A DNA stretch of 64,000 bases from positions 1-64,000 of the forward strand of contig NZ_KE384554.1 in the NCBI RefSeq assembly GCF_000426705.1, written 5' to 3'. The translations under genes were made by a program, and so were the position numbers. This DNA is from Spirochaeta cellobiosiphila DSM 17781 (GTDB lineage Bacteria; Spirochaetota; Spirochaetia; DSM-17781). This document shows positions 2,348 through 52,855 of the stretch, one piece after another (position 1 is the first letter of the stretch; each line of letters starts with the position of its first letter). The notes under the pieces are model-generated. The model had not been told where the DNA came from, searched no databases, and saw nothing but the letters and a program-made list of their open reading frames with translations.

Positions 2348-3325
2348 ATGGAAGTAGCAGATTCTTTGGTAAAAATCACAGAAAAATACCTCACAAGACG
2401 AAGAGTAAAGCAGTATATACGAAAAGAGAGATCAAAGCGAAGGCATTTTATTATAGACTGGCTGGATGCTTTTCTTTGGGCTGCTGGTGTAGTGCTTCTT
2501 TTAAATCAGTATTTAATTCAGGCTTATCAAATACCCTCGCCCTCTATGGAAAAAACACTAATTGTAGGTGACAGAATATTTGTAAATAAGCTGGTATATG
2601 GCCCTGAATTGCTACCAGGAATTGCTAAACTACCTAGCCCTATAAAACCCAAGAGGGGTGATATAATAATTTTTGAAAATCCACAATACATATCACAAGG
2701 TCCAATCTTTGATGTCTTACAACGTATCATTTATATGTTGACCCTTTCTATGGTGGATATAGATAAGAATCCTGACGGAACTCCAAAACATCATTTTTTA
2801 ATAAAAAGAGCTGCTGCTGCTGATGGTGATACAATAAAAAATATTGATGGATATATTTACTTTAAACCTGAAGGGGAGTCAGAGTGGTTAGATGAGACAA
2901 CCTATCGTACAAGATTAGACCAAAAAAATAAGACCCAACGTTTGATAAAAGATGAAAACTACAACACGATTCGTCTTGGTTCTCATGCTATTGCATTAAA
3001 TAATAGTGGAGCTACACTTACTTCTGATGAATCCAGTGCCTATTCTCAAATACAGACTGATAGAGATTATTTTGATCTCTATTCAATTCAATTCTATGCC
3101 AATAAAAGTGAATTGGCTTTAAACAGGACATCAAAAATAGACTTTGCAACCTATTATAAAGATATTAATGGTCAATTTGTGCCACATGGTTGGATACTAC
3201 CTCTTGGGGATAATCGCGACAATTCAAAAGATGGTAGAAGCTTTGGGATTATAAGTAAAAAAGAGGTTCTGGGGCAGGCAATGATTAAATACTGGCCCTT
3301 AAACAGGTTTGGCTTGATAAAATGA
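2348..3325 (+). CDS. lepB: Signal peptidase I
   Basis: Leader peptidase that removes signal peptides of exported proteins at the outer face of the inner membrane. The 325-residue protein has an N-terminal cytoplasmic stretch, a membrane segment at about 40-58, the catalytic serine in IPSPSM (Ser66), the general-base lysine in FLIKRAAAADGD (Lys153), and the conserved GDNRDNSKDGR box near the C-terminus. It is longer than minimal SPases because of an insertion at about residues 112-148 and a further one before the last box. An AGGCGG Shine-Dalgarno lies 11 nt before the ATG. It overlaps the next, paralogous gene by 4 bp. Confidence 0.93.
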   Translation: MEVADSLVKITEKYLTRRRVKQYIRKERSKRRHFIIDWLDAFLWAAGVVLLLNQYLIQAYQIPSPSMEKTLIVGDRIFVNKLVYGPELLPGIAKLPSPIKPKRGDIIIFENPQYISQGPIFDVLQRIIYMLTLSMVDIDKNPDGTPKHHFLIKRAAAADGDTIKNIDGYIYFKPEGESEWLDETTYRTRLDQKNKTQRLIKDENYNTIRLGSHAIALNNSGATLTSDESSAYSQIQTDRDYFDLYSIQFYANKSELALNRTSKIDFATYYKDINGQFVPHGWILPLGDNRDNSKDGRSFGIISKKEVLGQAMIKYWPLNRFGLIK

Positions 3326-4014
3326 GTAAGAAGTATCGTCCATATAATACGCAAACAGAAAAGAAACATATTGGGAAGAGAATTGGTCAAACTATCTTAG
3401 TTTTTTTTGTTTTTAAATTAATTATCTTCCAATTTTTCCCAATTTATCAATTTAATTCTACTACTATGACTCCTACATTTGAAGAAGGAGCACGTGTCAT
3501 AACATTAAGCTCTAGGATTGTAAAAAAATATAATAGAGGTGATGTCGTTATCGTTAATCCTCAGAATACTCATCATTCTCTGTTTTTGACTGCACTGGAT
3601 TATATAAGTCGATTTGTGACATTCGAGCAATTTTCTTTAATAAGCTATATGGATGAACCATGGGCTTCTGATAAACAATATAAACGTTTAATAGCTTTAC
3701 CTGGGGATAAAGTAAAAATTATTGATAATATCGCTTATGTGAAAACAAGTGATAATGAATTGTATTTAAGTGAATTTGAACTATCAAAACATTCTTATGA
3801 CATAAGAAGTAAAGTAAATGTTGATATTAATCCTAATTTACCCATAAAGGATGATATGGATGAGATTACTGTTCCAAAGGATGAGATATTTGTTCTAGAT
3901 GATAATCGAATTGTTTGGGGGGATTCTAGATTTTGGGGGACTATCGACAAAAAGGCAATTATTGGAAAAGTTTTATTTCAATATTGGCCTTTTGATTCTA
4001 TTGGTATTAGATAG
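3322..4014 (+). CDS. Signal peptidase I-like protein with Thr at the catalytic Ser position
   Basis: A second S26-family protein (230 residues) encoded directly after lepB with an ATGA overlap. It has an N-terminal membrane segment (about 23-42), the lysine box YKRLIALPGD (Lys121) and a C-terminal LDDNRIVWGDSRFWG box. In the serine box the sequence is FNSTTMTPTF: the residue before the conserved Met49 is Thr48, where active SPases have Ser (compare IPSPSM in the upstream gene). Either Thr48 acts as nucleophile, Ser46 takes over, or the protein is an inactive partner of LepB. Codon 48 reads ACT at 3463-3465. Confidence 0.82.
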   Translation: MSKKYRPYNTQTEKKHIGKRIGQTILVFFVFKLIIFQFFPIYQFNSTTMTPTFEEGARVITLSSRIVKKYNRGDVVIVNPQNTHHSLFLTALDYISRFVTFEQFSLISYMDEPWASDKQYKRLIALPGDKVKIIDNIAYVKTSDNELYLSEFELSKHSYDIRSKVNVDINPNLPIKDDMDEITVPKDEIFVLDDNRIVWGDSRFWGTIDKKAIIGKVLFQYWPFDSIGIR

Positions 4015-51928: not shown

Positions 51929-51960
51929 TACTGATATATTATTTTGCCTATTGAAAAACG

Positions 51961-52161
51961 TCGATTTTGCTTACTTATAAATGGTTGAAACCAAGTAACC
52001 AAATGGACCAAACCAAGTAACCAAATGGTCGAAACCTAGTAACCAAATGGTCGAAACCTAGTAACCAAAAGGTCGAAACCTAGTAACCAAAAGGACCAAA
52101 CCTAGCAGTCAAAAGGACCAAGCCAAGCAGTCAAAATCGATAAAATGCAGTAAGTAAAATC
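51961..52161 (+). repeat. Seven tandem 22-bp repeats with inverted flanks
   Basis: Seven head-to-tail 22-bp units run from 51979 to 52132, consensus AAATGGTCGAAACCTAGTAA plus CC; units 3 and 4 are identical, the outer units drift (GGACC for GGTCG, GCAGTC for GTAACC). Each unit carries GGT...ACC half-sites. The left flank GATTTTGCTTACT (51963-51975) is the reverse complement of AGTAAGTAAAATC (52149-52161) with one mismatch, and TCGATTTTG (51961-51969) is the exact reverse complement of CAAAATCGA (52132-52140). The 22-bp period cannot code for a simple repeat protein and has no spacers, so it is not CRISPR. It fills the gap upstream of the lipoprotein gene. Confidence 0.85.
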
Positions 52162-52279
52162 TTAAATATCAGATTGATAATGGTGAAAGAAAAATGAAGA
52201 GTGTGTATCCATCTATATTGATTAAAACTCACTTATAATCTATTTTATTTAAATGAAAATTTGAAAAAGGAATAGATAA
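52162..52279. other. AT-rich gap between repeat array and lipoprotein gene
   Basis: Together with the array this makes a gap of about 350 bp. After the repeats there is only AT-rich sequence and the ribosome site AAAAGGAA (52264-52271) of the next gene. No ORF or clear promoter was found. Confidence 0.4.
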
Positions 52280-52855
52280 ATGAAAAAATTATTACTACTC
52301 ACTATAACTAGTTTCATGTTTTTTAGTTGTTCGTCAATACAAAAAGAAAAGACTTATGCTAATCTAACGAAGGGTACAGAGCTTTCTGATTATTTCCCCA
52401 ATTCTTCTGGTGTATTATATTTTGATAATCTAGACGATGCTTATGAATATATTAATAGTGCTGAGTATAAATTAAAGAAAACAATTAATAAGAAAAAACA
52501 GAAAGGATTACCTGCGATCTTAGAAGGACCTAAGGTCAAATCTGATAGTCCTGTTACTGTAGCATATTTTCTATCTGCAATGAACCATCTAAGTCAGGAA
52601 GTAACTTTAGATTCTCCAAATATAGATTTAGAGCAAGTATTAAGGCGTAGTGTGTCTGTGACAAATGTTTTTATGATATTTGTTGATGATAAAGCTATAT
52701 CTCTTTCTGCTTTTTACTTAAAAAGTGGTTACAGATACTCTAATAGTTATAGTCAATATCAGAAAATGTCTTTTAACAAAGAAGTATACTTGGCAGACTA
52801 TCCTCGAGGTTGGGATATTGATGATGCTTTTGAATACTTAAAAGTTGAAAATTAA
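52280..52855 (+). CDS. Putative lipoprotein of unknown function
   Basis: A 191-residue protein whose N-terminus (MKKLLLLTITSFMFFSCSS) has a relaxed lipobox FFSC, acceptable for spirochaetal lipoproteins, with Cys17 as the likely lipidation site. The mature part has no motif I recognise. An AAAAGGAA site precedes the ATG. It stands alone, following the repeat array. No neighbours on the same strand are close. Confidence 0.6.
   Translation: MKKLLLLTITSFMFFSCSSIQKEKTYANLTKGTELSDYFPNSSGVLYFDNLDDAYEYINSAEYKLKKTINKKKQKGLPAILEGPKVKSDSPVTVAYFLSAMNHLSQEVTLDSPNIDLEQVLRRSVSVTNVFMIFVDDKAISLSAFYLKSGYRYSNSYSQYQKMSFNKEVYLADYPRGWDIDDAFEYLKVEN

Follow-up and report, generated by a model that had tools for sequence, protein, structure and literature searches.

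The 22-bp repeat array in the window (the whole 64,000-nucleotide stretch that was analysed) represents, on a reading that we hold with modest confidence, one copy of a gene-less interspersed repeat family that has transposon-type ends with several sites each and was moved by a transposase. The window's own assembly (3.95 Mb in 29 contigs) was searched and contains at least 12 intergenic elements derived from the unit of this array, which are designated E1 (the window array) to E6 and B1 to B6 (Table 1). All copies are intergenic, even though open reading frames of at least 130 aa cover about 93% of the window. The family is best read as a new MITE/BOX-like one, its ends being inverted repeats of several units each, as in IS21, Tn7, and Mu.

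Structure of the window array

Tandem Repeats Finder reported a period of 22 with 6.1 copies and 91% matches for 51988-52121, a second row with 6.8 copies of the 22-bp unit for 51988-52136, and a row with a 44-bp period and a score of 199. A degenerate 22-mer gives six consecutive matches at the array and none elsewhere in the window (0.2 by chance). The seven repeats described in the sequence-only reading are thus present as seven direct units, of which the seventh is diverged and bears the right border CAAAATCG. That reading also found no coding frame, which agrees with the presence of at least one stop in each of the six frames across the array, some minus-frame positions having single stops that occur late. 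The central copies, which it described as identical, are not: no two are the same over 22 bp, and neighbors among units 1-6 differ by one to three bases. The difference rises with distance, and only 4 of the 5040 possible unit orders are as smooth as the actual one; this stepwise change along E1 is how local duplication looks.

The array is flanked by inverted borders. The matches given in the earlier reading stand: 12/13 between GATTTTGCTTACT (51963-51975) and the reverse complement of 52149-52161, and 9/9 between TCGATTTTG and CAAAATCGA. Taken alone, the inversion at E1 is weak, a 12/13 match being reached in 4 of 300 shuffles and the local alignment score in 44 of 1000. It is convincing because an inverted unit recurs at the matching place in E2, E3, and E5 (1/1000, 13/1000, and 1/1000 shuffles, respectively). 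The proposed outer left unit rests in part on a minus-strand pattern match at C24:51943-51973, and the outer stems of E1 appear in its RNA fold. Rfam models matched only rRNA in the window, with no known RNA family at the array, and the predicted 191-aa product of the neighboring putative lipoprotein gene has no Pfam match.

Table 1. Locations of the units of E1, the other family members, and the neighboring genes
Feature	Location	Strand	Remarks
Whole element E1, proposed	51931..52172	+	242 bp, 11 x 22; CTGATAT to ATATCAG; inferred, limits uncertain
Outer left unit ATTTTGCCTATTG, inverted	51941..51953	-	diverged; ~23 bp outside inner left unit
Inner left unit GATTTTGCTTACTTATAAATGG, inverted	51963..51984	-	inner terminal inverted repeat
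Seven direct 22-bp units	51988..52141	+	consensus AAACCTAGTAACCAAAAGGWCS
Core of E1, GATTTTGC...CAAAATC	51963..52138	+	176 bp (8 x 22)
Outer right unit AGTAAGTAAAATC, direct	52149..52161	+	diverged
Putative lipoprotein gene	52280..52855	+	191 aa, signal MKKLLLLTITSFMFFSC; neighbor outside element
E2	C24:197842-197972		core 131 bp
E3	C3:115363-115471		core 109 bp
E4	C29:211041-211149		core 109 bp
E5	C3:611-719		core 109 bp
E6	C26:103749-103960		23-bp units
B1 and B4	C1		palindromic type
B2	C25:421980		palindromic type
B3	C2:90200		palindromic type
B5	C25:470485		palindromic type
B6	C26:424985		palindromic type
End repeat of family			TTTTGCTTAC
HU-Ig family gene (PF14848)	L180 1259-1954		directly upstream of B5
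HU-Ig family gene (PF14848)	L058 15243-15935		directly upstream of E4
HU-Ig family gene (PF14848)	L059 3-518		directly upstream of E5

Members, lattice, and end modules of the family

The members comprise three groups. (i) E1 and four further arrays found in the genome search, E2-E5, have the same inverted inner ends, with seven direct units in E1 and four or five in the others. (ii) E6 has eight or nine direct units, eight of which contain a perfect GTAAGCAAA, and the remainder of its unit is unlike that of E1. (iii) In the B elements the units alternate in orientation and form head-to-head palindromes. An A-type unit is nevertheless found at a lattice position in two of these, as AAACCTAGTAAGC to the right of B1 and TTTTGATTACTGGGTTT to the left of B3, which ties the A and B types together. 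E4 and E5 sit in a duplicated region at contig ends with matching flanking genes; the near-identical stretches at the end of C29 and the start of C3 each carry an HU-Ig gene, the element, and a GTA-type 3TM holin. A search with the outer ends for members with other interiors gave nothing new beyond B6, and single matches to AGTAAGCAAA elsewhere in the genome lie, as judged by eye, mostly in coding-like or chance sequence.

Scored with one unit matrix, E1-E6 show a spacing of 21-23 bp between adjacent units, in the same or in flipped orientation. Because the 22/23-bp spacing is kept, the sites stay on one helical face despite the orientation flips, and the same-face phasing and protein-binding appearance that were proposed from the window array alone gain support at the sequence level. 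Two head-to-head units form a dyad of 31 to 37 bp, the length being 31 bp in E2-E6 and in most of the B elements. Covariation is seen between the arms of the 31-bp dyad, with 15 cells changed on both sides as compared with 8.9 in shuffles (0/500) and swaps that include CG to GC and UA to CG. The shuffle control ignores the relatedness of the copies, and the covariation therefore supports a maintained dyad and is not proof of an RNA stem.

Outside the units, a left-end module (ATTTYYTAARGCTYAAA) is homologous in E2, E3, E5, and B6, the pairs E2-E3, E3-E5, E3-B6, and E5-B6 each being matched by none of 500 shuffles; it has no significant match in E1. A terminator-like hairpin precedes the left module in E3, E4/E5, and B6, and the form of this hairpin module in E4/E5/B6 (AGGYYATNNGCTTTCGGGATTTYTTAARGC) occurs, with up to three mismatches, at three places in the genome, all of them at these elements. 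E3 and E5 are alike at their right ends as well (1/500 shuffles).

The family is apparently confined to this lineage. BLAST against 59 other genomes gave no match, and when 395 genomes of the class were scanned for the pattern, this genome gave 20 matches and nine others gave one each, the latter being near the control rate; no clear copies were found in the other 394, none of which is of the same genus or family. No relatives were found in plasmids and phages, and viral contigs gave one weak pair of units and no match to the palindrome. A pattern scan of genome contigs returned 17 places in unrelated bacteria, and those inspected are different repeats. A literature search for the unit sequence gave nothing relevant. 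Similar arrangements were seen at a few other places. One other genome of the class has a two-unit look-alike (G280, L081). Several Acinetobacter species have direct repeats of AGTAAGCAAA about 22 bp apart (L090 1124-1155, L088 7807-7837, and L103 2861-2892), which in L090 and L103 precede, at a conserved position, a gene whose product begins MSQKKSV; these are an unrelated look-alike or operator. A Ruminococcus MAG contig (L101, ~3320-3440) has several 21-bp units (ATGTTGTAAGCAAAAGCCAAA) near a mobilization (MobA-like) gene.

Origin of the elements

The MITE/BOX-like reading is preferred because the elements are dispersed, have inverted ends composed of repeated sites, share end modules, and contain no genes. 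The inward-facing units TTTTGCYTACTNRGTTT at both ends would be terminal inverted repeats of several predicted protein-binding sites, and a DDE transposase supplied in trans would once have occupied these repeated end sites next to one another, all on a single DNA face, and carried the element to intergenic positions. The varied counts of internal units and, in the B type, the alternating pairs may have arisen afterward as slippage or unequal exchange multiplied these units. We infer transposition, the type of transposase, and protein binding; the mobile minisatellite of the sequence-only reading is the closest of its suggestions to the evidence, given a dispersed family with shared end modules. 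As in a MITE, the elements are short and gene-less with several dispersed copies in one genome. Terminal inverted repeats are found in E2, E3, E5, and B5 and are weak in E1, and the inversion of the outer border of E6 is not significant. Inspection by eye of the flanks of E1-E5, where the element limits are uncertain, showed no target-site duplication, and neither an empty site nor an autonomous element with the same ends was found; the end-motif matches with up to three mismatches lie within the arrays in all cases but one, and that one corresponds to the control rate. An old MITE family may have lost its partner and does not need one to qualify. The conserved hairpin module is one-sided only, which is atypical for a symmetric MITE and counts against this reading.

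The neighbors of the copies are mostly unrelated, and they and their gene orientation vary. They include CorA and a 2-hydroxyacid dehydrogenase, an α-amylase and a class I tRNA synthetase, an M42 peptidase and a cNMP-binding protein, the GTA-type holin, a response regulator and an M16-type peptidase, and putative lipoproteins. In two independent cases (E4/E5 and B5) the element immediately follows an HU-Ig gene, the two genes sharing 39% identity; this is a possible link between HU-Ig DNA-binding proteins and the arrays that we regard as a lead.

This lead bears on the strongest alternative, which we consider unlikely: the arrays could be chromosomal binding platforms for a host protein, nucleoid or regulatory and possibly of the HU-Ig family whose genes adjoin some copies, that recognizes the unit (core GTAAGCAAA) cooperatively along one helix face. 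The retention of the lattice through flips, the position of E4/E5 and B5 directly after HU-DNA_bdg genes, and the identity of the core in eight units of E6, though the rest of that unit differs from the window's, are all consistent with such a platform. Against it, the core has drifted to GTAACCAAA and GCAGTCAAA in the window array, the shared non-unit end modules would be superfluous for a binding site, the gene contexts vary, and no HU-Ig gene was found in the stretches around E1, E2, or E3. It is improbable that a single protein, perhaps an HU-Ig family member, recognizes the 22-bp lattice in any orientation and number as part of a chromosomal nucleoprotein system with the dispersed arrays as anchors. 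Given about 12 small arrays over several contigs, a partition or iteron use, as brought up earlier, is unlikely.

There is also a small chance that the elements act at the RNA level as terminators, attenuators, or 3'-end protection, with the palindromic units as stems. The covarying dyad arms agree with this, as do the folds, which are better than those of shuffles (z of -2.3 to -2.7), and the terminator-like stems followed by T-rich sequence in E3, E4/E5, and B6, downstream of genes. However, E2 and E6 are located between divergent genes, the direct-repeat middle is mostly unpaired in the fold, and no terminator was predicted in E1. A plain minisatellite, expanded by slippage with neither function nor mobility, would account for the likeness of adjacent units but is quite improbable and already disfavored by the shared end modules, the inverted ends, and the dispersal to about 12 loci.

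Least probable is a phase-variable, copy-number switch acting on the lipoprotein gene at 52280-52855, which the sequence-only reading had suggested as one possibility. The start codon lies about 140 bp beyond the end of the array, and E6, B1, and B4, as well as E1, are upstream of putative lipoprotein genes, but B1 and B4 share one paralogous gene cluster and are not independent, a promoter scan predicted no more than in shuffles, and most copies adjoin unrelated genes, which argues against a role limited to this gene. In a cluster of paralogous putative lipoprotein genes (L053 43-4841), two of the intergenic gaps contain B-type palindromes. This case warns against assigning a tandem array to a gene simply because the two are adjacent.

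Comparison with known systems

The elements probably are a family of MITE relics that act in the manner of a multi-site transposon end, and they are filed neither in IS21 nor in BOX. REP/BIME elements are short intergenic palindromes in pairs or clusters, and such palindromes are present in the family; in contrast, it also has long direct-repeat arrays on a 22-bp lattice and dyads of 31-37 bp.

As in IS21, the family has at least two direct repeats at each end that are inverted between ends; the second left unit of E5 is diverged, and in some copies none scores above threshold. In intact IS21 elements of the class, repeats with a 21-24-bp lag follow istB. The family differs in that its ends do not enclose istA/istB, the units are more numerous (up to eight or nine), and the sequence is different, and no terminal TG..CA was found. 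Filing as IS21 was rejected, the ends being different from those of intact IS21 elements sampled from the class. As a partner in this genome, only decayed istB was found above the cut-off, with no clustered units nearby; the istB remnants are at L111, L112, L113, and L114, with IS3-like orfA fragments beside L111 and L114. IstA requires two direct repeats per end, and the number of end repeats required is a question raised in structural work on IS21 (PMC10122671). In the present family, transposase-type sites differ in number and orientation at a conserved helical spacing, and if the elements are MITEs with multi-site ends, they would offer natural material on the end repeats that IS21/Tn7-like transposases need.

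The BOX elements of Streptococcus pneumoniae have the arrangement boxA-boxBn-boxC and number 125 in one pneumococcal genome, as compared with about 12 copies here (PMC3049150). The likeness, which is one of published architecture only, is that of a small intergenic interspersed repeat with stem-forming end modules and variable tandem internal modules. The boxB module is larger than the ~22-bp units of this family, which are also flipped to form palindromes.
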